From positions 1 to 48,329 of the IMG/VR virus record IMGVR_UViG_3300030451_006500: a stretch of 48,329 nt of DNA; one strand, 5' to 3'. The number at the start of each line of letters is the position of its first letter. The stretch's first letter is position 1. The DNA is from a virus. This document shows positions 10,960 through 45,599 of the stretch, piece after piece. The notes beneath the pieces were generated by a model. It had not been told where the DNA came from and made no database searches. It worked only from the letters and a program-made list of their open reading frames with translations. The position numbers and the translations under genes are program-made.

Positions 10960-10967
10960 TATTTATT
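10960..10967 (-). promoter_or_regulatory. Late-promoter-like AATAAATA upstream of the collagen-like gene
   Basis: Within TAATAAATAA on the minus strand. It contains the stop codon of the 3803-residue fibre gene and lies about 22 nt upstream of the ATG at 10938. This is the same arrangement as at 9793-9800. Confidence 0.38.
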
Positions 10968-22414: not shown

Positions 22415-25400
22415 TTATTTATCAAGAAGACCTCTCAATTCGTCAATTTGTTTTTGTTGATCTTTAACAGTCTCAATTAATAATCCAATCAGTCCATTAT
22501 AATTAACCGATTTAGTATCCTCACCACTGACAATCTCTGGTAATACCTCCAGAACATTATCTGCAATCACACCAAGTGATGGTTGATTTGTTTCTTTCCA
22601 ATTAAATGAAACACCATCAATTTTCATTATCTTTTCAATTGGATTTTCAATGACTTGAATATTTGTTTTATATCTACGATCTGATAATGAATCAAAATTA
22701 GTTGCTGCAACAGTTCCATTAACTTCTAATTCATATGAAGGTGATGTAGCTTTAACTCCAACTTTACCGTCCTGAAGAACTGTGATTGCCTCAAATTGAG
22801 TTCCCTCTGAATTATCTGCGAAAAGTGAAAAACTATTATTATTTCCAGTTCTTGATCCCATGTATTTCAATGAGAATCCATAATTTGAATCATTCGATTC
22901 CCCATCATGATCGTCAGTTGCACCATCAACTCGAATTAAAGTAAAATCATTACCAGAACCACCAGCACCCATACGTATTGCTGTTCCGTTACCACCACCA
23001 TTAAGACGTATAGTTGAGGCTGATTCACCAAAATCTAAAGTATATGCTGGATTTTCACTTCCAATACCGACTCTACCATTACTATCAACACGGAATGCTT
23101 CATCAGCATTGTTGTATACACTAAAGAATCCTGAAGTACCTGGTAAAACTCTAACTTCATTAATATATCCAGTACCCTCTGTACCGATTTCAATTACAGC
23201 ATTTTCATTTTTAATAAGATTTCTTGTATATCTTCCTAAATTAGAGACAGGATGCTCAACATAGATTCCCGAATTAGGAGGTATCACTAAAGCTGCATCA
23301 GATAAGGTGTCACCACTAGGATGTGGAGAAGTATAAGATCCTGCGTTTGTTTTTATCGGACCATTAACTTCAAGTGTTGCATTTGGAACTGTGTTTCCAA
23401 TGCCAACCTTATCATCAAATGTAGATACTCCTACAACATCTATACCATTTGCAAGTACATGGATTCCATTTCTTGCAGTAACAAGACCAATCGCATCAAC
23501 GTTAGTAACATCTTCATAAGTTAATGTACCACCAATCGAAACATTACCAATAAAATTAGCACTTGAAGCAGTTATGATTCCCGTTACGATAACTCCATCA
23601 CTTGTCGTGGTAAGTCTTTCTGCATTATTATGATATACAATTGACCCAGTTTCAGCACCTTTAAAGTAGTATGATGAATGGTTTTGATTCATCAACTCTA
23701 CTTCTCTAGCAGAGATAGTTAAATCAGCATTATTTGCTGCTGAAATAAAGTTGTTATTAGTAGCACTGAAATGATAAATCTGTAAATCAATATCATTTCC
23801 AAACTTAAGTTTCTTATCATCTGCGAATCTTGCCTCTTCAAATGTTGAAATACCAGATACATTTAAACTATCCAATTCTGTATGACCATCTACATCTAAA
23901 TTTCTATCAATTTCTACATTACCACCTTGTTTAATTGAGATTCTCGGTGTACCAAATGCATTAGTGTAAAAATTTAAACTGTCACTTGAATGATCATAAG
24001 TTATTTCACCTCTCTTTCGATCATCACCAGTTGATCCGTCAGCAAACAAAATGCGACCTGTTGTTCCATCACTATTAATAGTTAATCCACGACTACCCTG
24101 ACCATCACCAACAACTAAATCATCTGCTAGAAATAATGAAGGATCTGTTCCAATTCCAATCGTATGAAATGTTGCGACACCAACGAAAGTACTAATTCCA
24201 GTTACAAATAAATTACCTGTAACTAAATTTTCTTGAATTGTATTAATTTCACCAACAAACTCATTGGCATATACTACGTCCCATTTGTTAGTAGAGGATC
24301 CAAGATCTTGTGAAGCACCACCAGGTAAAAAATCACCACTAGAGTTGATGCGAAGTCTTTCTGCACTTGCTGTATTATCATATATTTGGAAGAAATTATT
24401 TTGTGCTTGAACATCAAATCTTATTGCTGAAGTTTGAAGAACTAAACCAGCTACATCTGTACTACCTGTTTCAAGTTTTATTCTACAATTTCCACTACTA
24501 ACCTGTACATGACCTCTTTCATCAATACCACTTCCTGTTCCAAATCCAAATCGACCATTTGAGTCGATGCGAAGTTTTTCAGAACCTTCATGATTGAAAA
24601 CAAAATCTGAAGTATTAGCTGAGACATACTTGTTTCCAATATGCCAGTCAGCATCATGTACTCTAAAATGAGCCAGTGCCATGGCACCAGTTGTAGTATT
24701 ATCGTTTTCAATTCTTATACCATTTCCACCCCAATTACCACCACCCCCACCACTAAGTGAGGTATTTGCATTATTAAAATTAACTTGAAACTTGTAGTAA
24801 GGACTAGTGGTTCCGACTCCAACATTTCCAAGTAAATGTCCACCACCAGAAGATTTTAAGAAACCAATTTGGATTGAGGAATTTCCTACTTGTTTTGCTG
24901 TTCCATCAGAAACAAAATTCCAAGTTCCACCTGTTCCATAATTTGAATTATCATCATGCCAAATATGATCTATATTGCTGGTACCACCATTATTAGAGAT
25001 CAACATATTATTTTGGAAATTAATATCTCCTCGAACATCTAATTTTGCCGCTGGTATCGCACTTGCAATTCCAACTTTACCATCCTGAAGAATTGTGACT
25101 GCTTCAACTTGTGGACTTCCTGTCCCTTGATCTCCAAAGATTGAAAGACTATTATCATTATTAGTCCTTGAACCCATGTATTTGATCGAAAATCCATTGG
25201 CACCATCATTACTTTCTCCATCATGGTTAGGAGTCGCACCATCAACTCTTAACAAAGTAACATCATTAGCACCACCACCAGAACCCACACGTATTGCTGT
25301 TCCGTCGTTCTCACTCACAAGACGAATGGTAGATGATGATTCACCAAAATCTAAAGTATATGCTGGATTTGCACTTCCAATACCAATATTACCAGCAGAC

Positions 25401-28400
25401 ATTGCAGTAAGAATTTTGTTAGTTCCACCAGCACCTTCTACAGCAAAAGATGGTCTGTTAGAGTTATTATCAGCATCAACAATTAAGAAGTCTGTGCTAC
25501 CAGCTGAAACAAAAGATTTAAAATATGAATGTCCTGGTTTAAATTTAGCCTCAAAGTGAAGATCTGGAGAACCACCGCCTGTATCATCAGTATCAATATA
25601 TCTAAATCTGGCAACCCCATCACCATATGTGTCAGTGCTTTGCTCTAGAACATCAAGTTTTGTCAACAGATCATCAGTTCCGATACCAACTTTACCATTT
25701 CCTAGAAGTGTTAATCTATCCTCTTGTGTTGCTGTTGAAAAACGCATACTATCGTCAGCATGTCGATATTCAATAGAACCTTGATTAAAAGAACCAACTC
25801 CATCAGAGAACATGATTCTTCCAACACCAGTTGAGGCATTACCTAATATTGATATTCCTGTATTAACATCATTTATAGTTCCAACGACAACATCATTTGC
25901 ATTTGTTGATGCAGAATTATTTGATGATCCATTTACAACAATTCCTTGTGAAATAACATGAATTCCATTTCTTGCAGTGACTAATCCTATCGCATCTACG
26001 TTAGTAACATCTTCATATGTTAATGTACCACCGATTGATACATTACCATCTACATTTAAATCACCAGGAATATCGACAAGACCACCATTTCTTATACTTA
26101 ACCTATATTCTGTGTCATTAGTCTGGGTCGTCTCCATAATTATGAAGTTGCCATCCTGTTTTCTTATTTTGTAATCAGGAGTTCCAGTAGTGTCATTAAA
26201 AACTAATGTAGGTGCAACACTTTGAATTTCCAAAGCACCTAGAATCTTAACATTATCTTCAAATGTTGAGATGCCAGAAACATTTAATGTTTCAGAAATA
26301 TTAGTAATATCTAATTCAGAACGACCATCTACATCTAAATCTCCGTTTATATCTGCTCCTGTTGAAGTGATAATTCCAGATGCGTTTAATTGAGTGGCAT
26401 CAACTGTTCCATATACAGTGACACCTAATCCAGATGTTTCTAATCTGATATCTGAAGCAAGACTAGTATAATGCCCACTATGATAGAGTCTTGTTGATGT
26501 GCTGTCTGCTCGTAACCATACACCTGCACCAGATTCACTTCCTAACTGTATAACTCCAGAACTACTAATTTGGAATCTTGATGATTGATCTAATATCCAA
26601 AAAACATCATCCAAATAATCAAAAGCAGAATCTAAAACATAACCAAATGATGTTACATTTGTACCATGTGTCGGACCATGAGCCCAACTAATAACACCAC
26701 CCTCTGGAGCAAATCTTATACCAGTGCTTCCCGTTGCAAAAAATACCGTTGTTCCAAATCCAACAGTTGCACCTGTTCCTACAAAAACATTATCAGAGAA
26801 TGTTGATACTCCAGATACATTCAAATGAGTAGTATCTAATTGATCATAAACAGTGACTCCAACTCCAGATGTTTCCAATCTCTTAGTTGCTGTACCACCA
26901 GATGAATGATACAATTCAACTGTACCAGAACCACCATTATCAGAATTTGCGATAATCGCATCTCTTGCAAATTGTGTTCTTATTTTTATAGCAGTGCTTT
27001 GACCACCATCAATGAAGAAATTATCTCCACGAGTCAGTATATATGAATTATATGTCGGGCCAGCACCATTATAGTTACCCTGCATTACAAATCCACCTGT
27101 AGCACCTGCACCTACATTAAGTTTTGTACTTTCATAAAGACGAAGAGCATCTAAATTTTGATTAGTTCCATTACCCTTATGAAACTGTATGCTGGTTTGT
27201 GCAGAACCAACTGGAACACCTATGAAATCTACATCATCATTGAATGTTGAGACACCAGCGACATTTAAATTATCTAATTCTGTATGACCATCTACATCTA
27301 AATCTCCATTTACATCTAAATCATTAACTGTGGTAATACCAGAAATGTTAACATTATCTAATTCAGTGTGACCATCTACGTCTAAATCTCCATTTACATC
27401 TAAATCATCAACTGTGGTAATTCCAACCACATTTAAACCACCACTTGTTATATCAATACCAGACCTTGCAGTTACAATTCCTATCGCGTCTATATTTGTG
27501 ACATCTTCATAGGTTAATGTTCCTGCAATTGAAACACTTCCCTGAAATTCTGCAAATCCTACAAAAGTTGACAATCCAGATACTTTTAAATTATTAGTTT
27601 CATAATTATCAACAACAATACTACCACCAGACGCATTTATATCTTTTACATAAAGAGTATTCCACCTTAATGTTCCTCCACCTAAATCCTGTTGTTCATT
27701 GTCACCTGGTAATAAATCTCCCGTTGAGTCAATGCGAACTCGTTCATTACCAGCAGTATCAAATTTTATTTCATTAGTGCCAAAATTTATTTGAGTATCT
27801 GTATCTCCAACATGAAATATTGAATCTGCTATTCCAACAGCACCACTAAATGTAGATATTCCAGTGACAAATAAATCACCTAAACGTGTATCACCAGAAA
27901 CATCTAATTTTGACTGTGGATTGGTAGTTCCAATACCAATCTTATCATTTGCAAGAAATGGTGCTAATTGAATTGTTCCATCTGCATCAACATTTATACT
28001 TGGTGTTCCACTAATATCATTAACTGCGAATATCGAACCTGATGATAAGTTATTCGTGACTGAGAATAATTGTCCTTCAGTACCTTCAACATTGAAAGCA
28101 GTTACAGATGAACCAACATTGACATCTAATTTTGCATTTGGATTTTCTGTGCCGATACCAACTCTACCAGTTGATGTGATGCGAAGTCTTTCTTGGTTAT
28201 CTGTTTGAAGTCTTAAATTACTTGCTCCGTTAGTTGTTAGAACAGCATCACCACTTACATTTTGAAGTTCAACATCTGTAGCAAATCCAGCATCTTCTAA
28301 TCTAATTCGACAATCTGTATCGAGTATGTGAAGAGGTCTGACGGGATTGTTGGTTCCAATACCAACTTTTTCAGTTATTTCTAAATTACCTGTTACCTTT

Positions 28401-30445
28401 CCACCATCCACAAGAGTTTCGATTCTCTTCGTAGTGTTATAGTACAATTCAACAGCGGCATCATCTAAACATTTTACATTCCAATCTCCACCCTTATCTT
28501 TAAATCCAATATTATCACTATTATCAGCAAATATTTTTCCTCTTACTGTATTATCATTAGTTGATAAATCTATTGTTGAATCTGTTCCAGTTCCATATAC
28601 AGTGACACCTAGTCCAGATGTTTCAAATCTAGGTAAAAAATCATGATATAATTTAACTGATCCATTATCATTTGCTTCAAGATATGGTTCATTACCATCC
28701 TTATTTCTAAGAATTAACTTGTCTGCTCCAATTGCTAAAGTACCAGCTACACCTGCTCTTGTATCTCTAATTATCGACTCACTACCACTACTCTTGATTT
28801 CTAAAGTCTGACTAAATCCCATTAGGATTCTTGTGTCATCAGAGAACCATAAGTAGTTATTTGCTTTCGCCCAAATCGCAAATGGTGTGCCACCATTTCC
28901 TGCACCTGTGCCTGTACCTTCAAATGTTGTTAGACTACCTTTAAATTCTGCGTTACCACTAAGTGTAGTAATACCAGATACATTTAAATCATCTAATTCT
29001 GTATGACCATCTACATCTAAATCTCCATCAATATCTACATCATCAAGATTTGCAATTCCATCTACGTCTAAATCACCATTTGCATCTATATTATTAGTAA
29101 ATGTAGAGAAACCAGTGACACTTAGATTAGTGGTATCTAATTTTCCGAAAATTGTTACACCAACACCTGATGTTTCCAATCTCTTTGAATTATTCCAATA
29201 TAATTCCACACCTTGATTTTTCTTTGCTCGAAGCATTGTCTTAGAATTATCAGATGTCAATTTGATGGAAAATCCATTTGTATCAAGATTTAAATTACCT
29301 TGTCCAGTATCTTGAATATAACTCTGATCTGAGGAATGATATATTTTTAAATCTTCACCCTCACCAAACATGGCTTGAACATCGTCACCAAATGTTAACT
29401 TATTCAGTGACTTATCAAAAAGTATGTTATTGCCATTATTAGTGATAAATTTAACATCATCATTAAAAGTTGATATACCAGCATCTACATTTAATCCAGC
29501 ACTATCAATATCAATACCTGATCTTGCAGTTATAATTCCTATTGCATCAACGTTAGTTACATCTTCATAAGTTAATGTCCCTGCGATTGACACATTTTTC
29601 TCAAATACCACATCATCAACAAATGTTGCAATACCTGTAAACCTAGATTCACCTAGAACATCTAATAATCTATCAGGTTGTGTTGATCCAATACCTATAC
29701 GATTGTTTGTAAAATCAAAAACAAAATTAGGAGCACCCCCAAGTAATCCTGTTGCATCATGGAATTGAACTTGAGTAAATGTTCCAGCAGCACCAGTTTC
29801 AACACTATTATTATCGATCCATCTAACACCACCTGTAGCAGTTTTAATTAATAAATCACCTGGATTTCCTGGTTGATTATCTTCACCATATATTGTTTTA
29901 TCTAACTTAACATTTCCAACGACATGTAAATTTTGAGTGGGATTTGAAGTGCCGATACCAACTGAACCAATACCTATACTATTATCAAAAGTAAAATAAG
30001 GTGATGTTGCAAATTCACCATCATTATTAAATATAACTCCATGATTTTCACCTGGTGCAGAAACGGTAACAGTTATAGCAGTACCAGCTGACCCATCTGG
30101 ATTAATATAACCAAGAACACTTACCGCAGCTCCTACAAAATCAACGTCTGTAATACTATTAATACCTAAATTAGGATTGGCATTAGTTCTTGGAACAATT
30201 AAACCTTCATCTCTAAACGTAAGAGAACCTGGAATTATACCACCACCAACAGGAACCCAAAATCTTTCACCTGGTCTCTCAATAAAAGAAACAATCTGAT
30301 ATTGCGTACCAGACGGTAGGGGATCAAATTCGGGAGGATCACCTATATTAGGTTCTGTCTGTTCTAACCCAAGGAACTGATATCTATCTGTCGTTAATGA
30401 TCCTTGCGGAGTTCTTTTGACTCTGCCACTTAAATACTTTGGCAT
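22415..30445 (-). CDS. Giant tail fibre with DLDVDG repeats and S74 chaperone (2676 aa)
   Basis: A distinct N-terminal domain (MPKYLSGRVKRTPQGSLTTD to about residue 150, with FIERPGERFWVPVGGGIIPG) is likely the attachment end. The shaft contains GIGT..P...LDV repeats, many (D/N)GDLDVDGHTELD repeats, (T/S)SGVGVTVYG segments and four copies of the LTYEDVTN module. It ends with an S74 chaperone of about 90 residues: Ser2588 in SLSDRRYKTNI, GVIADNVLEVLPEIV and a C-terminal coiled coil. The DRRYK form keeps the conserved Arg. It shares long cassettes with the 3803-residue protein, so the two are paralogues over much of the shaft but differ at both ends. I infer a second, separate trimeric fibre. 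Confidence 0.88.
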   Translation of the reverse strand: MPKYLSGRVKRTPQGSLTTDRYQFLGLEQTEPNIGDPPEFDPLPSGTQYQIVSFIERPGERFWVPVGGGIIPGSLTFRDEGLIVPRTNANPNLGINSITDVDFVGAAVSVLGYINPDGSAGTAITVTVSAPGENHGVIFNNDGEFATSPYFTFDNSIGIGSVGIGTSNPTQNLHVVGNVKLDKTIYGEDNQPGNPGDLLIKTATGGVRWIDNNSVETGAAGTFTQVQFHDATGLLGGAPNFVFDFTNNRIGIGSTQPDRLLDVLGESRFTGIATFVDDVVFEKNVSIAGTLTYEDVTNVDAIGIITARSGIDIDSAGLNVDAGISTFNDDVKFITNNGNNILFDKSLNKLTFGDDVQAMFGEGEDLKIYHSSDQSYIQDTGQGNLNLDTNGFSIKLTSDNSKTMLRAKKNQGVELYWNNSKRLETSGVGVTIFGKLDTTNLSVTGFSTFTNNIDANGDLDVDGIANLDDVDIDGDLDVDGHTELDDLNVSGITTLSGNAEFKGSLTTFEGTGTGAGNGGTPFAIWAKANNYLWFSDDTRILMGFSQTLEIKSSGSESIIRDTRAGVAGTLAIGADKLILRNKDGNEPYLEANDNGSVKLYHDFLPRFETSGLGVTVYGTGTDSTIDLSTNDNTVRGKIFADNSDNIGFKDKGGDWNVKCLDDAAVELYYNTTKRIETLVDGGKVTGNLEITEKVGIGTNNPVRPLHILDTDCRIRLEDAGFATDVELQNVSGDAVLTTNGASNLRLQTDNQERLRITSTGRVGIGTENPNAKLDVNVGSSVTAFNVEGTEGQLFSVTNNLSSGSIFAVNDISGTPSINVDADGTIQLAPFLANDKIGIGTTNPQSKLDVSGDTRLGDLFVTGISTFSGAVGIADSIFHVGDTDTQINFGTNEIKFDTAGNERVRIDSTGDLLPGDNEQQDLGGGTLRWNTLYVKDINASGGSIVVDNYETNNLKVSGLSTFVGFAEFQGSVSIAGTLTYEDVTNIDAIGIVTARSGIDITSGGLNVVGITTVDDLDVNGDLDVDGHTELDNVNISGITTVNDLDVNGDLDVDGHTELDNLNVAGVSTFNDDVDFIGVPVGSAQTSIQFHKGNGTNQNLDALRLYESTKLNVGAGATGGFVMQGNYNGAGPTYNSYILTRGDNFFIDGGQSTAIKIRTQFARDAIIANSDNGGSGTVELYHSSGGTATKRLETSGVGVTVYDQLDTTHLNVSGVSTFSDNVFVGTGATVGFGTTVFFATGSTGIRFAPEGGVISWAHGPTHGTNVTSFGYVLDSAFDYLDDVFWILDQSSRFQISSSGVIQLGSESGAGVWLRADSTSTRLYHSGHYTSLASDIRLETSGLGVTVYGTVDATQLNASGIITSTGADINGDLDVDGRSELDITNISETLNVSGISTFEDNVKILGALEIQSVAPTLVFNDTTGTPDYKIRKQDGNFIIMETTQTNDTEYRLSIRNGGLVDIPGDLNVDGNVSIGGTLTYEDVTNVDAIGLVTARNGIHVISQGIVVNGSSNNSASTNANDVVVGTINDVNTGISILGNASTGVGRIMFSDGVGSFNQGSIEYRHADDSMRFSTATQEDRLTLLGNGKVGIGTDDLLTKLDVLEQSTDTYGDGVARFRYIDTDDTGGGSPDLHFEAKFKPGHSYFKSFVSAGSTDFLIVDADNNSNRPSFAVEGAGGTNKILTAMSAGNIGIGSANPAYTLDFGESSSTIRLVSENDGTAIRVGSGGGANDVTLLRVDGATPNHDGESNDGANGFSIKYMGSRTNNDNSLSIFGDQGTGSPQVEAVTILQDGKVGIASAIPAAKLDVRGDINFQNNMLISNNGGTSNIDHIWHDDNSNYGTGGTWNFVSDGTAKQVGNSSIQIGFLKSSGGGHLLGNVGVGTTSPYYKFQVNFNNANTSLSGGGGGNWGGNGIRIENDNTTTGAMALAHFRVHDADWHIGNKYVSANTSDFVFNHEGSEKLRIDSNGRFGFGTGSGIDERGHVQVSSGNCRIKLETGSTDVAGLVLQTSAIRFDVQAQNNFFQIYDNTASAERLRINSSGDFLPGGASQDLGSSTNKWDVVYANEFVGEINTIQENLVTGNLFVTGISTFVGVATFHTIGIGTDPSLFLADDLVVGDGQGSRGLTINSDGTTGRILFADGSTGDDRKRGEITYDHSSDSLNFYTNAFGTPRISIKQGGNVEIDRNLDVDGHTELDSLNVSGISTFEEARFADDKKLKFGNDIDLQIYHFSATNNNFISAANNADLTISAREVELMNQNHSSYYFKGAETGSIVYHNNAERLTTTSDGVIVTGIITASSANFIGNVSIGGTLTYEDVTNVDAIGLVTARNGIHVLANGIDVVGVSTFDDKVGIGNTVPNATLEVNGPIKTNAGSYTSPHPSGDTLSDAALVIPPNSGIYVEHPVSNLGRYTRNLIKNENAVIEIGTEGTGYINEVRVLPGTSGFFSVYNNADEAFRVDSNGRVGIGSENPAYTLDFGESASTIRLNGGGNGTAIRMGAGGSGNDFTLIRVDGATDDHDGESNDSNYGFSLKYMGSRTGNNNSFSLFADNSEGTQFEAITVLQDGKVGVKATSPSYELEVNGTVAATNFDSLSDRRYKTNIQVIENPIEKIMKIDGVSFNWKETNQPSLGVIADNVLEVLPEIVSGEDTKSVNYNGLIGLLIETVKDQQKQIDELRGLLDK
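22416..22423 (-). promoter_or_regulatory. Late-promoter-like GATAAATA upstream of the 3803-aa fibre
   Basis: Minus strand GATAAATAA contains the stop codon of the 2676-residue gene and lies about 39 nt upstream of the next ATG at 22377. The 37-nt gap is longer than most in this operon, which supports a promoter there. Confidence 0.42.
22418..22690 (-). other. S74 intramolecular chaperone domain of the 2676-aa fibre
   Basis: Codons for about residues 2586-2676. It contains SDRRYKTNI, the GVIADNV core with LPEIV, and a closing helix rich in Gln, Lys and Glu. Predicted cleavage is before Ser2588. Confidence 0.83.
27268..27427 (-). repeat. 84-bp tandem repeat (28-residue fibre repeat)
   Basis: Two adjacent near-identical copies with an 84-bp period encode ITTV(D/N)DLDVNGDLDVDG followed by HTELDN(V/L)N(I/V)(S/A)G. 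Related degenerate copies lie at about 28975-29060. This looks like recent tandem duplication in the shaft. Confidence 0.8.
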
Positions 30446-31453: not shown

Positions 31454-34400
31454 TTATCTTAGTGCTAATATTAACGGTGTGACTTGTGCTTGAATTGATC
31501 TGCTAAAGTCTCTTCCAGAAATACTTGAAGTTGTTTGGTTAATTTGTAAACCCTGACCAATATCAAAATTACCTTGCTGATCTGTAGATGTAAATGGAAT
31601 TTGTGCTCCATCTTTAGCTACGATTTCATTTGCCTTTATCGGAATTGCACCTTGTAGGGGTGTCGATATATTTATGTCTGTACCAGCACCAACATATTCA
31701 AATGAGTGAGAACTTGTTAGAATACGACTGATTCTTTGTAGAGAAAAGGGATCGTCTGGGAATAGTTCATATGGAATAAATTCATTAAATGTTATGGTAG
31801 TTATTCCTGCTGGTTCTCTATTTGCTCCAACATTTACTGTGATAGTATTATTTGTTCTTGAATCAATATTAATTGCAGTATCATAAAAAGGATCACTGGG
31901 ACGAGGATATGAATGTTGAGATGAAAAATTATCTTTTGCACATGTAAAAGTTAATGATCCGTTTGCAATCTTAATACTTGTGTCTTGAGTCAATGTATTA
32001 GATCCAATTGTTAAAACCAACACACCCGTATTATTTTCGTAACTTGCATTCGTTACATCATGATTAACTATTGGTGATGCCCCAACATTAACTGTAAATG
32101 TATTTGTAGTTGGATTTGTAATTGCAAGAGTTTGTCCTGATGCAGGGTCAGTAGACCTCGGATAACTATGTTCAGTGGCATTATTATCCATTGCACAAGT
32201 AAATTTTAATGCGTTATCCGCAATCGTAACCGTATTAGATGCTGTTAAATTATGAGAACTAGATGTAATGACAAGTTCTCCTGTGCTAGGTGTATATACT
32301 GCATTTGTAATTGCATTTGGTAAGTTACCGACATTACTTGTAACACCATTTGGCACAGCAGATACAAATGTATGTGTATAGTCACCACCAGACTGAACTG
32401 CATTACTTGCTGTCCCACCTACGTAATTATGAGCACCTGATGCAATATAATTTTCAGTAGCAGATTCAACTGTGAAGAATATTGGACTCATAACAGCAGT
32501 TGCAAGTCCAGTATTACCTTCAATATCAACAATAATATTTTGACCAGAAAGATAATTCCTACCCTGTGCAATTACATTTACGCCAACAAGAAATCCTCTC
32601 GCATCTATGTCTGCAGTTGCTTCTGCAATAACACCTTGAGGACCTTTTGGTTCCACTTCACCATCAGCATCACGTATTAGTACACTCGGTGGATCAATCG
32701 CACTAAATCCTGACAAATCATTTCCTGTCGCAATCAAATTAACTGATTCTAACTGTTGAAGTGGTGCTGTAATTCTTCCATCTGCATCAATCCCAGTAGT
32801 GACACCTGTGGTATTTACATCTGGATAATTATCAAGATCTATTCTGAAGAATAATGCTTGACCATCAAAAGGTCTTCTAGATACACCATTTAAATCAAAA
32901 ACATCAGCACATACAACAGTATCCTGCCCTTCAGCATTTGTGCTCGCAATTATATTTCCAGTAGGATCTGTATTACTTACAATTCCAGTAAATTGTGTTG
33001 AACCTAAACCAACAGCAACCAAACCAAAATTACCAAATGAAGAGTTTGAGTTTGTTAAATCACACTGTGCACCACTTGATGCAAATATTCCAATATCACA
33101 ACTAATTGTAAATATTGAAACTAACTGAGCATATCCATTATTTGTAAGAGAAACACCTATTCCATTTTCATTGTATTGTGTATAAGAGTCTACCACCATA
33201 GATTTCAAATCACCACCAACTGTCGAAGCAGTTGCATTATCACCATCAACTTTTAATCCAATACTATCAGTCATAAAGTTAGTACAGTTTCTTACATATG
33301 GTGACCTCCATCTACCACTTGGTCCTTCAGTTGCAGGTCCAAATTCTGTATATCCAGTAACTGCCTGAAAATCTTTTCCAGCGTTTACACTTGCTTGAGT
33401 TGGTGGAAATGCAACACATGCTGCCCCTGCATGAGAAACTCCAACATTTGATCCACCAAAGTTAAGGTTTTCTATTAAACATCCTCTTCTCACATGGAAG
33501 ACATCCTTGTCCTTATTTTTTGACTGTACAGTCACCAATCGAAGATCTTCACCTGTAATTGAAACATCAGTTCTTAAACCAATTGGATTATCTTCAATGT
33601 ACAAACCTGGTCTAATTTTAATCGTATCTGTTTCAACTGCGATTGAAGCTGCTGCACCAATCGTCGCCTTGGCATCACCTTCAAGTAATCCACTATTACT
33701 ATCAGATCCACTCTTAGAAACCCATATAGTTCTCTTTGTTTGAACACCAGAAGGTCTCCATGAAACACCAGCACCAACTGATGCCAATCGATAATCACTT
33801 TTAACATATTGACCTGATGAATGATATACACCATTAGATGCTGTAATGAACGTATGTGAATTGCCAGAGGCAAGTCCACCATCACCAACATTTACTTCAA
33901 ATGTATCATCAGTTTTATTAGAAATAACTAACCATCTTCCACTTGCAGGATCTTTTCCTCTTGGATATGTTTGAGTTCCACCATTACCATAATTACAAGA
34001 AAAAGTGAGAGTATTATCAGGAATCTGTATCGAATCACCGTTTGAAAATCCATGTCCAGCAATTGTAATTTGCAATAAACCATTCGCTGCATTATATGTT
34101 GCATCTGTTATAGTATTAGATAATGTTGATGAAACTGTAGTTCCAATATCATCATTTTGATCTTTTACAGTGCTATCTAAATCTACTGTTCCTTGGAACG
34201 TCGAGACACCAACAACATTTAATGTCTCAGAAATATTAGTAATATCTAATTCGGAACGACCATCTACATCTAAGTCTTGAGTGATGGTTGCAGTACCAGC
34301 AATGCTTACATTAGCATTAGCATCTACATCTCCAGTAAATGTGGATAAACCACTTACTTGAAGAGTATCTGTTTCAACATGTCCTGTTACGTCAATACCA

Positions 34401-37102
34401 TCATCATTTGTTGTTAATTTTACATTTCCTGAAGAGAATAATTGAACATTGTTAGTTCCAGCACCATCAACAACAATACTATCTGTTCCATTTGCTCCTT
34501 GGATATTAATATCCTTTGTTGAATCCGTCTGTTGTATGAATAAATCACCTTGATTAGAAATTATATAAGAATCAGAACCAGACGAATATATATCTAAATC
34601 TTCACCAAACTTTATTTTTGCATTATCAGAAAATTCAAGTGCGTTTTCCGACTTATCCCAGAAAACATCATAATTTTGTCCAGTAAATTTAACATCGTTA
34701 CCAAACGTGGAAAATCCTGTTACATTTAAGTCTGTTGTAATATCTAAATGTCCGAATACTGTGGCACCGATTCCAGATGTGGCAAAACGTTTTTCATCAT
34801 CATAGTATAAATCTACTGGTCCATCAACAAAAAATTCTGCTAGTGATTCTGCACCAAGACCTTTTGCCAACCTTATTTTTTCACCATTCGACCCGATCAC
34901 TAACTGACCAGTGCCTTGATCTACTATCCAAGAATTAAGAGCATTATGATATAGTTGTAAATCTCCATCATCTCCTATTTTCAATTTTGCATTATCAGCA
35001 AACTCTAAAGCATTGTCTGATTGATCCCAGACCATATTGTAGCTTGCACCAGTGAAGGTTACATCATCAGAGAATGTAGCGTTCTCTGCTACATTTAAAA
35101 TATCTAAATCTGTTTGACCATCTACATCTAAATTAGCATTTGCATCAATATTTCCATTAAATGTTGAAAGTTGGTTAACAGTTAAGTCTACTTCAATATC
35201 AACACTTGCATTTATATCAACATCTTGAGAAAATGTCGAAAGACCAGCAACACTAAATCTATTTGCAAATAAACTACTTTGTTGAGTTGTAATTCCAACG
35301 AATGTGGATACCCCAGATACATTTAAATGAGTGGCATCTAATAGACTTCTCTGAGTTGTAACACCAACTAAATCAGATCCTCGATGCACATTTAAAGTTT
35401 CTGATTGTATATTGCCAAAAACTGTAATACCAGTTCCAAGTGTTCTTAATGTTTCTGTCGTTGAATGGAAAAGTTTAACTGATCCACCACTAACCGCCTC
35501 AATCATTGGATCAGTAGAACCTAGAGCTCGAATATAAACAGTTCCGTCAGTTGCTATGTTTATATCATTACTATTTGTGCCAGTAATAAAATTACCTTCA
35601 TCATAAAACATCTCCATTGTTGCTGTTGAACCAGGTGGTCCAAAAATCAACTTAGTTTCAGTAGGAAATTCTAAAGTATTCTCAGATTTATCAAAAAATA
35701 TAGTTTGATTATCTCCTTGAAACTGAACATCATTTGTAAACGTAGTTACTCCAGTAAATGTAGATATTCCAGTGACAAATAAATCATCTAAATGTGTCTT
35801 GCCAAAAACATCTAATTGTGCACCAGGATTTGTTATTCCAATACCAACTTTTCCTAAATTTGTTACAGCAAAAACACGACCATTTGAATTTACTTGAAAT
35901 ACTGTACTTGGATCAGTAGTTCCAATACCTACTTTACTCATCCTATAGATTGAACTATCAGTAGCATTTCTAGTTTTAAAACCCCAAAAATCAGATGTGA
36001 AAACTGTTGCCAATCCAGCACCAACACCATCTACTGCCTCTATTGTGTCAGTTCCTTGACCAAAACTGTTTACTGATGCGAAGTTAACAATACTATATGT
36101 TTTTGCTGCTCCAGCATTCGGTATGAATACACCTTCATCCTGTATTCGAATACCTTGAGTTTCTTCTGGTTCAAATGCTGACCAACGAATACCATCACCA
36201 TCACGTTGTAGAAAATATCCATTAAATCCTGGTGAACCAGCAGAGTCATATATATTTCTTGAAATAGATATACTTCCATCAACGGTTAATCTTAATGCTC
36301 CATTTCCTGTTCCACCTAATGATGGTAGAACACCATTTCCATCATCAACAGAATGCATACCAATTGGATTTGTTGTCCCAAGACCAACCCGTGATGTTCG
36401 TATCCCAACATCAGGAACTATAAGATCACCTAAAACCGAAACACCAGTACCAGTGGTCTCAAATTTAGGATTCCCATCAAAAAATAATTCGACTTTACTG
36501 TTTGGGATAAAATTAGCTAAAACTTCATCATCAGGTTCTCCAAAAGCTCCTAATGCTGCTCGAAGACTTATTTGCCGTCCTGCATTAACTCTTAAATTTA
36601 AATTACTTGACCTTCCTTCAACATATGCATTACCTAAATGACTGAAAATATATAAATCGTTATCATTTCCAAATACAGCATTAACGTTATTATTGAAAAA
36701 TACGTCAGAGCTAATTCCAATAGTAGATCCAGCCCCAGTAAAAATATCTTCTTGGAATGTTGATATACCTGTGACTAAAAGATTTCTTAAATCTAAATCA
36801 AGTATTTTTGCCTTACCATATACATCTAATAAAGCTTCAGGATTTGAACTTCCGATACCAACTCGGCCACCATCTAATCTTGTATCAGCAAAAAATAATG
36901 TGCCCCCTGCTCCAACTGTAAATTTATCAAAAACTTCTTGTTCAGGGAAAGTTATATCTTGGGAAAAATTAACTCTGTTTAGAAAAGTTGTCTCACCTGA
37001 AATCTGGGGAACAAAAACAGTTCCTTGTATAATAACATCTTTAAGAAAGGTTACCTTTTCATTAAATTGTGCTTCGTTACCAGTTACAGATATATTTGAC
37101 AT
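31454..37102 (-). CDS. Giant baseplate-associated fibre with beta-helix and SYPR/DP repeats (1882 aa)
   Basis: It starts MSNISVTGNEAQFNEKVTFL and goes into GIGSSNPEALLDVYG-type shaft repeats up to about residue 1000. A SYPR/DP module lies near 1000-1075. A beta-helix region follows: TIWVSKSGSDSNSGLLEGDA at about 1120, IKIRPGLYIEDNPIGLRTDV, and DLTNSNSSFGNFGLVAVG at about 1350. Two more SYPR/DP modules lie at about 1595-1760, and the SHSFEYVGAGTDINISTPLQ module at about 1797. There is no S74 chaperone. Gene order puts it directly after the gp5 hub and needle-like genes, and the start has a strong AGGAG Shine-Dalgarno sequence. I infer a spike or short-fibre-like component; the beta-helix could be a carbohydrate-binding or degrading domain, but no catalytic residues can be assigned. 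Confidence 0.82.
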   Translation of the reverse strand: MSNISVTGNEAQFNEKVTFLKDVIIQGTVFVPQISGETTFLNRVNFSQDITFPEQEVFDKFTVGAGGTLFFADTRLDGGRVGIGSSNPEALLDVYGKAKILDLDLRNLLVTGISTFQEDIFTGAGSTIGISSDVFFNNNVNAVFGNDNDLYIFSHLGNAYVEGRSSNLNLRVNAGRQISLRAALGAFGEPDDEVLANFIPNSKVELFFDGNPKFETTGTGVSVLGDLIVPDVGIRTSRVGLGTTNPIGMHSVDDGNGVLPSLGGTGNGALRLTVDGSISISRNIYDSAGSPGFNGYFLQRDGDGIRWSAFEPEETQGIRIQDEGVFIPNAGAAKTYSIVNFASVNSFGQGTDTIEAVDGVGAGLATVFTSDFWGFKTRNATDSSIYRMSKVGIGTTDPSTVFQVNSNGRVFAVTNLGKVGIGITNPGAQLDVFGKTHLDDLFVTGISTFTGVTTFTNDVQFQGDNQTIFFDKSENTLEFPTETKLIFGPPGSTATMEMFYDEGNFITGTNSNDINIATDGTVYIRALGSTDPMIEAVSGGSVKLFHSTTETLRTLGTGITVFGNIQSETLNVHRGSDLVGVTTQRSLLDATHLNVSGVSTFVGITTQQSSLFANRFSVAGLSTFSQDVDINASVDIEVDLTVNQLSTFNGNIDANANLDVDGQTDLDILNVAENATFSDDVTFTGASYNMVWDQSDNALEFADNAKLKIGDDGDLQLYHNALNSWIVDQGTGQLVIGSNGEKIRLAKGLGAESLAEFFVDGPVDLYYDDEKRFATSGIGATVFGHLDITTDLNVTGFSTFGNDVKFTGQNYDVFWDKSENALEFSDNAKIKFGEDLDIYSSGSDSYIISNQGDLFIQQTDSTKDINIQGANGTDSIVVDGAGTNNVQLFSSGNVKLTTNDDGIDVTGHVETDTLQVSGLSTFTGDVDANANVSIAGTATITQDLDVDGRSELDITNISETLNVVGVSTFQGTVDLDSTVKDQNDDIGTTVSSTLSNTITDATYNAANGLLQITIAGHGFSNGDSIQIPDNTLTFSCNYGNGGTQTYPRGKDPASGRWLVISNKTDDTFEVNVGDGGLASGNSHTFITASNGVYHSSGQYVKSDYRLASVGAGVSWRPSGVQTKRTIWVSKSGSDSNSGLLEGDAKATIGAAASIAVETDTIKIRPGLYIEDNPIGLRTDVSITGEDLRLVTVQSKNKDKDVFHVRRGCLIENLNFGGSNVGVSHAGAACVAFPPTQASVNAGKDFQAVTGYTEFGPATEGPSGRWRSPYVRNCTNFMTDSIGLKVDGDNATASTVGGDLKSMVVDSYTQYNENGIGVSLTNNGYAQLVSIFTISCDIGIFASSGAQCDLTNSNSSFGNFGLVAVGLGSTQFTGIVSNTDPTGNIIASTNAEGQDTVVCADVFDLNGVSRRPFDGQALFFRIDLDNYPDVNTTGVTTGIDADGRITAPLQQLESVNLIATGNDLSGFSAIDPPSVLIRDADGEVEPKGPQGVIAEATADIDARGFLVGVNVIAQGRNYLSGQNIIVDIEGNTGLATAVMSPIFFTVESATENYIASGAHNYVGGTASNAVQSGGDYTHTFVSAVPNGVTSNVGNLPNAITNAVYTPSTGELVITSSSHNLTASNTVTIADNALKFTCAMDNNATEHSYPRSTDPASGQTLAITNPTTNTFTVNVGASPIVNHDVTNASYENNTGVLVLTIGSNTLTQDTSIKIANGSLTFTCAKDNFSSQHSYPRPSDPFYDTAINIDSRTNNTITVNVGANREPAGITTITFNEFIPYELFPDDPFSLQRISRILTSSHSFEYVGAGTDINISTPLQGAIPIKANEIVAKDGAQIPFTSTDQQGNFDIGQGLQINQTTSSISGRDFSRSIQAQVTPLILALR
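31820..32318 (-). repeat. Two tandem SYPR/DP domains in the 1882-aa protein
   Basis: Protein-level repeats of about 80 residues, each with (V/I)TNA.Y..(N/S)TG.L(V/T)(L/I)T, then (L/K)FTCA(M/K)DN, HSYPR..DP and TVNVGA. The copies lie at about 32070-32318 and 31820-32065. A third is at about 33885-34115, and a fourth is in the neighbouring 334-residue gene. Confidence 0.8.
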
Positions 37103-41443: not shown

Positions 41444-42592
41444 TTAAGATACTGCTAATACTTGATGATCTCTAAGAGTATCATTTTTTTGTGTAACTAC
41501 GATAGTGCTTCCACTATTTGACTGTTGAGTCATTTGAGATTGATTACTATTATTACCAACAATCATGATGGTATTGCTTGATTTTCGATCCATCACCATC
41601 GTAGATGTGTTTATCACTTTGTTAGGTTTATTAATATTACTTATATTCAAGTTGTCTTGTGATGATGTATTATTTATTGCTGGACTTAACGTCTTATTTG
41701 ATGCTGAATCATTCATATTCGACATTGCTTGTCTAGCTTTTGCTAATTCATCTTCAAAACCCTCATCTCCACGCCTTAATTCCCTACCATCTAGAGTTTG
41801 TATTACAGTATTTCTAAATGGATCTTTTATATCTTTTATATCCTCTCTAAATGCTTGCACTCTCTCGTTATCACCAAAACTTGTTGCCTCTTTTTCAATA
41901 GTTTTTAAACTTTTTTTAAAATTTTCTGTTTTCGTGTCGATAGTTTTTTGCATATCACTGACACTTGAATTATTATTTGTATCTAATTTATTTGGTTTTT
42001 CTCCACTCTTATCCTCTAAATTATTGACACTGCTCATTTCACGGGCACCAGACTCAAAATTACTTTTCATATCACTAAGTGAACTATTAAAAGATCCAAA
42101 TGCATTTGATATATTATCTGAAATACCTGATAAATCGATTGATTTTATGAAACCAAAAACCTTTCCAACTATCTGACCCACTGATTTGAAAAATCCAATA
42201 ATCCCGTTAAAAAAATTCTTTATTTTATCAAAAACATCACGAATTGTACTAATTATCTTTTTAACAGATTCTATGATTTTTGGTAATTTATTTACAACAA
42301 ATCCCAATATCAGTGCCTGAACAAGTGATATCAATCTCTCTAAAGGACTTTTTCCTGAACCTTTAGTTTTTTTACCCTCTGTGTTTTTTTGTGTATTTTG
42401 TTGTTCTAATAATGCCTCTTGCTCTCTCCTCTTCTTTTCAAGTCTTCGTCTTCTCATATATCTCTTTTCTGCGACACGAAATCTCTTTTTGATCTTGGCA
42501 TTTTTTACAGTGCTTTTAGTGACACCTTTCAATATACTCGCAGACTTTGCTGCAACCTTTGCTCCAATTTTAAGTACTGCTGAAACTGCCAT
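41444..42592 (-). CDS. Basic hydrophobic tail protein, possible tape-measure component (382 aa)
   Basis: A highly basic predicted helix (about 33-60, with KKRFRVAEKRYMRRRRLEKK) is followed by an amphipathic or hydrophobic stretch at 84-150 (LISLVQALILGFVVNKLPKI and later FFNGIIGFFKSVGQIVGKVF). The C-terminal half is Ser/Asn/Asp/Lys-rich and looks flexible. The order hub chaperones, then this pair, then hub protein puts it where T4 encodes gp27-28-29. The GF(V)(V/A)NK segment also occurs in the neighbouring 443-residue protein (GGFVANK), so the two may be related. A role inside the tail tube or in membrane contact at ejection is possible. I do not recognise a characterised homologue. Confidence 0.6.
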   Translation of the reverse strand: MAVSAVLKIGAKVAAKSASILKGVTKSTVKNAKIKKRFRVAEKRYMRRRRLEKKRREQEALLEQQNTQKNTEGKKTKGSGKSPLERLISLVQALILGFVVNKLPKIIESVKKIISTIRDVFDKIKNFFNGIIGFFKSVGQIVGKVFGFIKSIDLSGISDNISNAFGSFNSSLSDMKSNFESGAREMSSVNNLEDKSGEKPNKLDTNNNSSVSDMQKTIDTKTENFKKSLKTIEKEATSFGDNERVQAFREDIKDIKDPFRNTVIQTLDGRELRRGDEGFEDELAKARQAMSNMNDSASNKTLSPAINNTSSQDNLNISNINKPNKVINTSTMVMDRKSSNTIMIVGNNSNQSQMTQQSNSGSTIVVTQKNDTLRDHQVLAVS

Positions 42593-43924
42593 TTACACCA
42601 CCATATTATATTGAGTCTGAGAATACAATGTAAAAGTGTTATCAGGATCTGAGGATGATATATTAGGAATATTTGTTGCTAACTTTTGACCTCCTTGACT
42701 AACTTGAGTGTTTGAAACTTTATTTTGAGTCATGTCAATCACTGTTGGTTTTGGATCTTCTAATTTTGTAATATTATTTTTCAAAAGTGGTTTGTCTATA
42801 TTAACGGTTTCTTTTTTATCAAAGGCACCAACATCTTTTGCGATTAAGGCAGCATCAATTCCAACAGATGCAGCAGTTCCAAGACCAGGAATTGTTGATG
42901 CAGCACCAGAAGCCAATTCAAGAGCAGCACCAGAAAAATCACCTGCCATGGCTCTTTGAGCAGCAAAAATAGCACCAAGACCCAATCCAAGTAATGGAAT
43001 TTTTTTAGCAAGTGCTTTTCCTAGACCTTTTTTAGCAGCATTTTTTGCAGTTTTTTTGACAACTTGTTTACCTATTTTTTCAGTTGCTTCTTTTGCAACT
43101 TTTTCCGACACTTCTTTACCTGTCTTTTTCATGAATAATTTACCAACATTTTTTCCACCAACGGCAGTTGCCAATCTTGGTAATATTTTTTGCGGACCTT
43201 TTTTAAAGACAGAAATCAAAGTTTTAGCAATTTTTCCAATATTTCTTATAGCACGAATTGAACCAAATATTAAATCTGGAATCAACATGAGTCCACGACT
43301 TGCAACGAGAAAAATACCACCAAGAACTGCAATTCCTTGAATCAGTCCATTTCTCATTTTTTTAAAAGTTTCAGTATCACCAGACATATTTGCCTGAATC
43401 ATACGAAGTGCTTTATTTGCTACAAATCCCCCAAAAATGAATAATAATGCGTCACCTAATCGACCTAAAACACCTTTTACCTTTTTAATTACCGATTGTA
43501 CTGGTTTTAGAAGACTTTTACCAACTGATTTTCCTACACCCTCTAAAAGTCCCTCTTTTCTTTTTCTACGATCTTTCTCATTCTCAATTTTTTCTGCTCT
43601 TAGTGATTCTCTTCGTTCTTGACCCTCATTTTCAGTATCAGTTGTGATAAATCCAGTTATTTTTTGTACAGTTTGTTGAATATTTGCAACAGATGCCACC
43701 AAAGCATTCATTATATTATTTGGTTTTTGTTGATTAACTTTTACGATTGAACCAGATCTTCCAAATACCTTTTTTGCATTTATCTTCCTTCTTCTAAAAA
43801 TTGCAATTCTTTCCTTTTTAGACAGTATTCTACCAGTAGATGGATCCACACCAGTATCTGCAGCATCCAAATTTGGATTACTCTGTATATTAAAAAACTG
43901 ATCTTTTGAGATGTTAGATGCCAC
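42593..43924 (-). CDS. Hydrophobic tail protein, candidate tape measure or hub component (443 aa)
   Basis: The start is GTG at 43924, inside the last codons of the gp51-like ORF (11-nt overlap); the next ATG would remove 70 residues. Residues 100-150 are very basic and charged (EKIENEKDRRKRKEGLLEGV). Hydrophobic stretches follow at 159-170 (LLFIFGGFVANK) and 194-222 (LIQGIAVLGGIFLVASRGLM). Lys/Ala-rich repeats run through about 230-300, and a glycine/alanine segment covers 300-370 (SGAALELASGAASTIPGLGT). In long-tailed phages the gene directly after the tail chaperone pair is usually the tape measure, so that is the leading guess. It is shorter than T4 gp29 (590 aa), and the adjacent 382-residue protein may share the role. 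Confidence 0.6.
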   Translation of the reverse strand: MASNISKDQFFNIQSNPNLDAADTGVDPSTGRILSKKERIAIFRRRKINAKKVFGRSGSIVKVNQQKPNNIMNALVASVANIQQTVQKITGFITTDTENEGQERRESLRAEKIENEKDRRKRKEGLLEGVGKSVGKSLLKPVQSVIKKVKGVLGRLGDALLFIFGGFVANKALRMIQANMSGDTETFKKMRNGLIQGIAVLGGIFLVASRGLMLIPDLIFGSIRAIRNIGKIAKTLISVFKKGPQKILPRLATAVGGKNVGKLFMKKTGKEVSEKVAKEATEKIGKQVVKKTAKNAAKKGLGKALAKKIPLLGLGLGAIFAAQRAMAGDFSGAALELASGAASTIPGLGTAASVGIDAALIAKDVGAFDKKETVNIDKPLLKNNITKLEDPKPTVIDMTQNKVSNTQVSQGGQKLATNIPNISSSDPDNTFTLYSQTQYNMVV

Positions 43925-44093
43925 TTTGTTGTTTTTGTCTTAAATTTTCTTCTTCAATATATTGCTCCAAGAGTGCGACATATACGTCTTTTTCCCATGG
44001 AATCATATTTTCTATCTCTGTCAAAGAGTATTTATGGTGTTGTACCAAAGCAAAGTTGATTTTATAGTATGACTCTAAACTTGTGTGAGCCAT
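43914..44093 (-). CDS. 51: gp51-like hub assembly catalyst / frameshift extension of gp26 (59 aa)
   Basis: A 59-residue ORF from ATG at 44093 to TAA at 43914. It contains FALVQHHKYSLTEIENMIPW then EKDVYVALLEQYIEEEN, the motif I associate with gp51-like baseplate hub assembly proteins of marine T4-like phages. It is much shorter than T4 gp51 (249 aa). The ATG lies 2 nt after the gp26 stop, with only a weak GAG upstream. The reading frame is exactly -1 relative to gp26 and stays open back through the slippery site at 44102-44108. It could therefore be made both alone and as a gp26 fusion of about 300 residues. It overlaps the next gene's GTG start by 11 nt. Confidence 0.78.
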   Translation of the reverse strand: MAHTSLESYYKINFALVQHHKYSLTEIENMIPWEKDVYVALLEQYIEEENLRQKQQSGI

Positions 44094-44095
44094 AC

Positions 44096-44815
44096 CTACT
44101 CGAAAAAAGACGATAACCCTTCTAGAAGAACTTCGTTTTCAACTTTTGTTTTCGGATTAGTCACCTTAATTTTATGTGACAATTTAGGCATAGTATCAAA
44201 AAACTGTTCAATATCCTTAAATTGCTTTGAACTCAACTGTTCCAGAAAATCGACCATTTCTTTTTTTGTACAATCTGATGAAGTCCATGACTCTTCTTGA
44301 TTGTATATTTGATCAATACATGATATGACTAAATCAAATGATTCCTCAACACCTACACCATCACTAAAATCAAAATTTGTTTTTATAAATTCATTCAAAG
44401 ATGGATATCTCATTCTCATTATTAGATCATTATCTAATTTAATATCTTTTTGATGTTTTGGATCTCTTTGAATTTTAATCTCATCCAAGGGTATTATCAC
44501 AGGAACTTGTGTTTCATTATCATCAGGACATGTGATCACTACTTCTACGTTTTCACCAACTGATTTACCTCTTATATTTAAGAAAAGATATTCAATATCG
44601 AATGTTGATAACTTATCAACTTTGATTCCTCTTGTCAGTATACAATTATTAATCACAGTCTTTAATGCATTGGTTATCTGTTTCTGATCTTCAGACTCCA
44701 TCGCAATTATTAAAATTTTCTCTTCTTTTACTAAAAAAGGTCTATATTTTATTTTTTTATTAGAAGACGGTAAAACCATCTCATATGTCGGTGTCGCAAT
44801 TTTTGGTAATGGCAT
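44096..44815 (-). CDS. 26: gp26-like baseplate hub chaperone (239 aa)
   Basis: The start MPLPKIATPTYEMVLPSSNK, then KIKYRPFLVKEEKILIIAME, LSTFDIEYLFLNIRGKSVGE and TCPDDNE (a CP.C-like zone with one Cys) match the T4 gp26 baseplate family (PF12322 as I recall it). The second half has RMRYPSLNEFI and an acidic EEESW-like zone near EQLSSKQF. T4 gp26 is 208 aa. In T4, gp26 works with gp51 in hub assembly; here the gp51-like ORF follows in the -1 frame. The gene starts a transcription unit: a perfect TATAAATA lies about 26 nt upstream. The last codons are TCT TTT TTC GAG TAG, which contain a slippery heptamer. Confidence 0.82.
   Translation of the reverse strand: MPLPKIATPTYEMVLPSSNKKIKYRPFLVKEEKILIIAMESEDQKQITNALKTVINNCILTRGIKVDKLSTFDIEYLFLNIRGKSVGENVEVVITCPDDNETQVPVIIPLDEIKIQRDPKHQKDIKLDNDLIMRMRYPSLNEFIKTNFDFSDGVGVEESFDLVISCIDQIYNQEESWTSSDCTKKEMVDFLEQLSSKQFKDIEQFFDTMPKLSHKIKVTNPKTKVENEVLLEGLSSFFE
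44102..44108 (-). other. Candidate -1 ribosomal frameshift site T_TTT_TTC
   Basis: In the gp26 frame the codons read TCT TTT TTC GAG TAG. The heptamer T TTT TTC has the X_XXY_YYZ form, and both tRNAs re-pair after a -1 slip. Reading on gives CGA GTA GGT ATG GCT, in frame with the whole 59-residue gp51-like ORF and without a stop. No strong downstream hairpin is obvious. Confidence 0.65.
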
Positions 44816-44930: not shown

Positions 44931-45599
44931 TTAGCCCCTTGGATTTACTTGATTCTCATTCTTCTTTCTATTAAAAGCACTACTTGTTTCTTTACCTGCA
45001 ATATATCTTTCATAACTGAACACAACATCACATCTTAGCACATCACTACTACCATATTGAACAGCAGTCGATGATAAGTTTGTAGGAAACAATCCGAAGA
45101 AAGTATACTCTATTTCTGATCTATAATCTACGTTAAACTTTACGATCTTTGTTTTATCACATTTATATCCTGAATTTCCACGAGGATATCTCATGCGATA
45201 GAAATAACCTTCCCTATCTTTTCTGACATTAGGTGAGAACTTCTCTGATCCATTTGAAATATAATCTATCCAATGTTCAAAAAATTTGATCATTTTATAA
45301 TCCTTATCCACATAGAATTGTAATGAGAGTTCAGTAAACTGTCTTGTATGTGCAAATTTTTCCTGTACTCCAGTAAAATTACCAAATATATCAGTCGTTG
45401 CTAATGAACTACCAGGTATTGATGCTTGATTACAAAGCAATCCTACATTTTCTGTTATAAATCTTCTATTCACTCCTTTTGTTCCAAGAAATTTAAAAAG
45501 ATCTGGTTTTAACCCATCAAAAAACACCTGATAATGAGATGTTTGTGCTACATTTGTCAGTATTGGTTTGATATCAGCTATTTTCTTAGGACGAACCAT
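44931..45599 (-). CDS. gp19-superfamily tail tube protein, gp54-like initiator (222 aa)
   Basis: Motifs include YQVFFDGLKPDLFKFLGTKG, NQASIPGSSLATTDIFGNF, EKFAHTRQFTELSLQFYVDK and FEHWIDYISNG, then EGYFYRMRYPRG. The PG..L...D..G...G..E..AH.R.F..L.L.FYVD.....FFEHW pattern resembles tube proteins of the gp19/gp48/gp54 superfamily. T4 gp54 (320 aa) begins the tube on the baseplate. The gene lies next to hub chaperones and is transcribed divergently from the gp4-gp48-gp53 block. The ATG has no clear Shine-Dalgarno sequence; a promoter-like TCTAAATA lies upstream. Assignment to gp54 rather than another tube paralogue is an inference. Confidence 0.65.
   Translation of the reverse strand: MVRPKKIADIKPILTNVAQTSHYQVFFDGLKPDLFKFLGTKGVNRRFITENVGLLCNQASIPGSSLATTDIFGNFTGVQEKFAHTRQFTELSLQFYVDKDYKMIKFFEHWIDYISNGSEKFSPNVRKDREGYFYRMRYPRGNSGYKCDKTKIVKFNVDYRSEIEYTFFGLFPTNLSSTAVQYGSSDVLRCDVVFSYERYIAGKETSSAFNRKKNENQVNPRG

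Follow-up and report, generated by a model that had tools for sequence, protein, structure and literature searches.

A predicted programmed -1 frameshift connecting the gp26- and gp51-type chaperones of marine T4-like phages

In a stretch of viral DNA of 48,329 nt (positions 1 to 48,329 of the IMG/VR record IMGVR_UViG_3300030451_006500; hereafter, the window), a single locus homologous to genes 26 and 51 of phage T4 very probably specifies a short and a long tail-assembly chaperone by programmed -1 ribosomal frameshifting, a reading to which a rough probability of 0.94 is assigned on the basis of comparative sequence analysis. According to the proposed mechanism, most ribosomes would terminate at the gp26 stop codon and release the short form (gp26), while a fraction would pause at the heptamer T_TTT_TTC, aided by a 3' hairpin placed 5 nt downstream and by the motif GAAGGG placed 8 nt upstream, slip into the -1 frame and continue in that of gp51, producing a gp26-gp51 fusion of 300 aa. 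We infer both the occurrence and the rate of slippage and, by analogy with gpG/gpGT of phage lambda, gp26 and the fusion would act together as chaperones of the tape measure protein. A frameshift joining these two genes had been proposed in the first-pass annotation of the window, and the prediction is now supported by the conserved phase of the two frames, the presence of tails devoid of start codons, a covarying element on the 3' side, a Shine-Dalgarno (SD)-like motif on the 5' side and the composition of T4 gp51, which corresponds to the full fusion.

The features of the locus are listed in Table 1. The 3' end of gp26 reads TCT TTT TTC GAG TAG, and a GT separates it from the ATG of a 59-aa open reading frame (ORF). 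The heptamer (44108-44102) contributes the codons TTT and TTC to the 0 frame, in the phase already described in the first-pass annotation, and from the slip onwards the -1 frame reads TTT TTT CGA GTA GGT ATG GCT and contains no stop until the 59-aa ORF ends; the earlier estimate of about 300 residues without an intervening stop thus proved accurate. The interval originally delimited, 43914-44130, covers the gp51 ORF and the junction, but the gp26 gene extends to 44815. The family matched by the 59-aa ORF, PHROG 634, is annotated as "baseplate hub assembly catalyst", and the same ORF also matches the PHROG 150 profile at its C-terminal end, a hint that relatives with both parts fused exist.

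Table 1. Features of the gp26-gp51 locus and its neighbours (window coordinates)
Feature	Position	Strand	Basis
gp26 homologue, predicted short form (TAC-N-like), 239 aa	44096..44815	-	Pfam T4_baseplate PF12322, E 1e-73; PHROG 150, E 8e-80, full-length profile match
Slippery heptamer T_TTT_TTC, in gp26 phase	44102..44108	-	Sequence; conserved among relatives
SD-like GAAGGG, candidate stimulator located 8 nt upstream of the heptamer	44117..44122	-	Anti-SD duplex energy
Candidate stimulatory hairpin	44066..44096	-	10-bp stem (44096-44087 with 44075-44066) with a loop of 11 nt; 5 nt separate it from the heptamer
gp51 tail (TAC-C-like), read as an extension in the -1 frame after the predicted slip	43914..44102	-	PHROG 634, E 2e-29; homology to the T4 gp51 C-terminus, blastp E 8e-7
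59-aa gp51 ORF of the annotated type, within the -1 extension	43914-44093	-	ATG at 44093-44091
443-aa gene, GTG start, candidate tape measure or internal tail protein	42593..43924	-	PHROG matches are large uncharacterised phage proteins
382-aa gene, second candidate tape-measure protein	41444..42592	-	Weak match to PHROG 305 (tape measure), E 1e-4
Tail-tube type protein, upstream of gp26	44931..45599	-	Phage_TTP_2 PF23849, E 1e-17; PHROG 45 (tail tube)

The 443-aa protein retrieved no curated tape-measure match in the PHROG profile search, and the assignment of the 443-aa and 382-aa genes as tape measures is plausible on weak evidence; in phage HTVC008M, a clearer tape-measure candidate sits one gene further on. 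The GTG start of the 443-aa gene overlaps the end of gp51 by 11 nt. Judging from their arrangement, gp26, gp51 and the 443-aa gene look translationally linked. A large part of the window is filled by four giant ORFs, including three on the minus strand (2998-8667, 1889 aa; 10966-22377, 3803 aa; 22415-30445, 2676 aa) that carry a Peptidase_S74 (endosialidase chaperone) domain close to their C-terminal end and are likely tail fibre or spike proteins, and a further one of 1882 aa (31454-37102).

The comparison of junctions from related phages, a check suggested in the first-pass annotation, supports the predicted frameshift. Eighty IMG/VR relatives were fetched as a close set; 79 of them hold both genes, and in 79/79 the tail lies open in frame -1, the offset of the ATG is constant and the heptamer is present. 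With the addition of more distant matches and isolates, the full set comprised 267 loci, which fell into 126 clusters when grouped at 90% protein identity and into 62 when grouped at 70%. An in-phase T_TTT_TTN was found in 124/126 and 61/62 clusters, respectively, as T_TTT_TTC, T_TTT_TTT, T_TTT_TTA or T_TTT_TTG, and the tail was always in frame -1; the phase is thus not random, and the site is absent from one Vibrio lineage only. The codon preceding the slip is always of the form NNT (GAT, AGT, TCT, AAT, GCT, ACT) while the amino acid it encodes varies (S, D, N, A, T), and the second slip codon can be TTC, TTT, TTA or TTG, so that the residue can change with the heptamer still slippery. When the estimate was conditioned on the encoded amino acids and on the codon usage of the genes themselves, the chance that all 61 clusters (70% identity) are slippery was about 10^-20.5, a figure that is optimistic, as it assumes independence among sequences of shared ancestry. 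The heptamer by itself means nothing, and its significance lies in its position, phase and conservation.

The position of the 0-frame stop is less constant: its distance from the slip is 1 codon in 107 clusters, 8 codons in ten clusters, 0 codons in five and 2 codons in two. As heptamer, phase and tail register do not vary with this distance, the first two are evidently kept while the stop wanders. In the ten clusters with the most distant stop, gp26 carries an extra C-terminal peptide that overlaps the tail in the -1 frame. The same arrangement was found in P-SSM2, P-HM2, HTVC008M, pf16, KVP40 and ACP17, in the Straboviridae Ah1, CC2 and S13, and in other lineages. One locus (L091) appeared to be an exception because of an earlier in-frame stop, yet its poly-T site is intact at the usual place. 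The Vibrio phages D504 and K452 are an actual exception; they contain no heptamer and their tail ORF starts at a TAATG overlap, with the gp26 stop at about position 2221, which suggests that translational coupling replaces frameshifting in these phages.

The sequences flanking the slip site also carry candidate signals. The folding of the 45 nt beginning 3 nt past the heptamer was compared with that of dinucleotide shuffles, using other stretches of the same genes as controls. The mean z score over 124 clusters was -2.56 vs -0.12 in the controls, and values below -1.5 were obtained for 66% of the clusters and 12% of the control stretches; in roughly a third of the clusters, HTVC008M, S13 and CC2 among them, no significant local hairpin was found within these 45 nt. 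The hairpin of the window has a dG of -12.7 kcal/mol and z scores of -2.4 to -4.8 over slightly different spans, and 99.3% of its cells are paired over 45 distinct sequences of the clade; one pair occurs as U-A, G-C and A-U, indicative of compensatory change, and most of the other pairs are invariant and hence uninformative. A second clade displays a hairpin of different sequence with three pairs showing double changes, in which 72% of the cells are paired and which is found in only part of the members. The junction hairpin matched no Rfam family. On the 5' side, an SD-like motif is located about 8-10 nt upstream of the heptamer in about 108/124 clusters; the duplex with the anti-SD has an energy of -5.7 kcal/mol, against -1.9 kcal/mol in the control stretches. 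Since a largely conserved [E/K/Q/R]-Gly pair of gp26 contributes to this motif, the case for selection on it is no more than suggestive.

In the hairpin of the window, the gp51 ATG sits in the 5' arm of the stem. A free gp51 may additionally be produced from this ATG in the window's clade. A more specific proposal is that the hairpin plays a double role in this clade, stimulating the slip and hiding the ATG, which would be exposed by the passage of ribosomes to give free 59-aa gp51 as a third product, with only two products in the clades without ATG; this proposal is regarded as rather unlikely.

T4 provides a natural control for the predicted products. T4 gp26 (208 aa) and gp51 (249 aa) are encoded by separate genes on opposite strands, and PF12322 is detected in both (E 9e-64 and E 4e-52, respectively), which also match each other by blastp (E 2e-6). 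Residues about 203-246 of T4 gp51 match the tail of the window (blastp E 8e-7), and the protein matches PHROG 634 with an E value of 1e-23. In T4 gp51, the tail thus comes after a gp26-type domain, so that this protein and the predicted fusion are collinear, and T4 gp26 is the counterpart of the unshifted product; by these homologies, the two are paralogous short and long forms. The end of T4 gp26 reads TTC TTT, which is not slippery. Both solutions are used within the Straboviridae: T4 and Aeromonas phage 31 keep genes 26 and 51 separate, and Ah1, CC2, Aeh1, PX29 and S13 are of the frameshift type. The gp51-type gene of phage RB43 (1201-1944) is in-frame, like that of T4.

One alternative, in keeping with existing annotations of a separate gp51, is that ribosomes re-initiate past the gp26 stop and make gp51 as a small protein in its own right from the ATG at 44093-44091, with the heptamer present by coincidence. 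The clade of the window does retain an ATG at the start of the tail, with TAR-GT-ATG conserved at a fixed offset, and D504 and K452 dispense with the heptamer and show the TAATG overlap. However, a scan of the -1 frame from the preceding stop to tail residue 14 found no ATG, GTG or TTG near the tail start in 59/124 clusters, so that the tail cannot generally start alone. Furthermore, in 10 clusters gp26 does not stop until 8 codons beyond the slip, well within the reading frame of the tail, the heptamer is preserved across amino acid changes, T4 gp51 is equivalent to the full fusion and the ATG of the window is buried in the 10-bp stem. Re-initiation was thus rejected as a general mechanism in view of the many tails without start codons and of the ten clusters in which the gp26 stop has moved beyond the point where the tail starts. 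It may apply to Vibrio D504 and K452, and as an account of the window we consider it very improbable.

The predicted frameshift would also clarify several inconsistencies in the annotation of gp51. The records of P-HM2, HTVC008M, Melnitz-3, C48C1 and phage OC hold a short, internally started gp51 or a hypothetical gene, and those of Ah1, CC2, S13, Aeh1, ACP17 and Atu_ph04 list no gp51, although frame -1 does contain the tail. In Ah1, CC2, S13 and Aeh1 it is an unannotated, ATG-less tail within the approximately 165 nt that follow the gp26 stop. In a comparative genomic study, cyanophage gp51 was reported to reach just about 20% of its normal length, and Aeh1 to be the one phage missing it (Sullivan et al., 2010; PMC3037559); frameshifting would explain both the "truncated" and the "missing" protein. 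Since gp51 is given a wrong start in many records or is absent from them, the two genes should be joined by annotation pipelines.

A second alternative is that the -1 product originates from slippage of RNA polymerase on the T6 run and not from the ribosome. Six to seven T are present at the site in all the heptamer-bearing clusters, which speaks for this explanation, but the run is short for transcriptional slippage, and a 3' hairpin together with an SD-like motif at ribosomal spacing fit ribosomal slippage; polymerase slippage therefore appears even less probable than re-initiation. Finally, a chance origin, in which the AT-rich end of a gene happens to hold T_TTT_TTC next to a gene in frame -1, agrees with the fact that TTTTTTC is not enriched in the window (23 observed vs 23.3 expected) but is refuted by the comparative data over 126 clusters, with heptamer and phase conserved in 124 of them (about 10^-20 under independence).

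With regard to previous work, frameshifting in tail chaperone genes was described in the review of Atkins (2016; PMC5009743) as a widely conserved feature of long-tailed phages, "except T4". According to papers that cite it (PMC10885494, PMC12846349), the study of Vladimirov, Gautam and Davidson (2022, Virology 566:9-15) identified the tail-assembly chaperones of T4-like phages. It is cited in the PRFect paper (PMC10885494) for T4-like phages with one short gene and one long fusion gene, and in the Adele paper (PMC12846349) for poly-T -1 slippery sequences in T4-like TAC-N genes. These chaperones are apparently gp26 and gp51, a match made by description, as the citing passages do not name the genes. 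As far as can be judged from these passages, the central idea of a frameshifted chaperone in T4-like phages is not new, and the impression conveyed by the first-pass annotation, that gp26 and gp51 are usually described as two separate proteins, has to be corrected. The present analysis adds the breadth of the arrangement over marine contigs, the covarying 3' hairpin, the SD-like motif and an account of the missing or truncated gp51; no earlier report of these was found in the texts consulted, the 2022 study being known to us through the papers that cite it. Altogether, marine T4-like phages, cyanophages and several further lineages probably rely on frameshifting to make the long version of an essential T4-type assembly factor.

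Structure prediction was also applied to gp26 and to a T4-type gp51. The AlphaFold2 model of gp26 (pLDDT 87) had no significant match in the PDB by Foldseek, and a sequence search of the PDB with gp26 gave no convincing match. The tail-assembly chaperone gp13 of phage HK97 (2OB9; E 1.0, probability 0.69, 72 columns) was the sole phage chaperone, and by far the match of highest probability, among the fifty matches listed, weakly supporting a likeness of fold. When compared with predicted viral structures, the gp26 model matched, as expected, proteins annotated as baseplate hub proteins of other phages. The model of this T4-type gp51 (pLDDT 84) shows an extra helical C-terminal part, and a fold search of the PDB with it returned nothing informative. 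The connection with lambda G/GT drawn in the first-pass annotation is backed by literature and gene context and, weakly, by the fold.

As in lambda gpG/gpGT, the window would encode a short chaperone and a -1 extended form, with the heptamer just before the stop and the locus upstream of a presumed tape measure gene, but the protein family and the slip sequence are different. The three-part signal proposed here is that of Escherichia coli dnaX, in which -1 frameshifting depends on an upstream SD sequence, a heptamer and a downstream stem-loop; the window differs in its heptamer (T_TTT_TTC vs A_AAA_AAG) and the genes are unrelated. Compared with T4, which has two separate genes, the window has one locus whose long form depends on the predicted frameshift, and the two paralogous genes of T4 would thus do what frameshifting does in its relatives.
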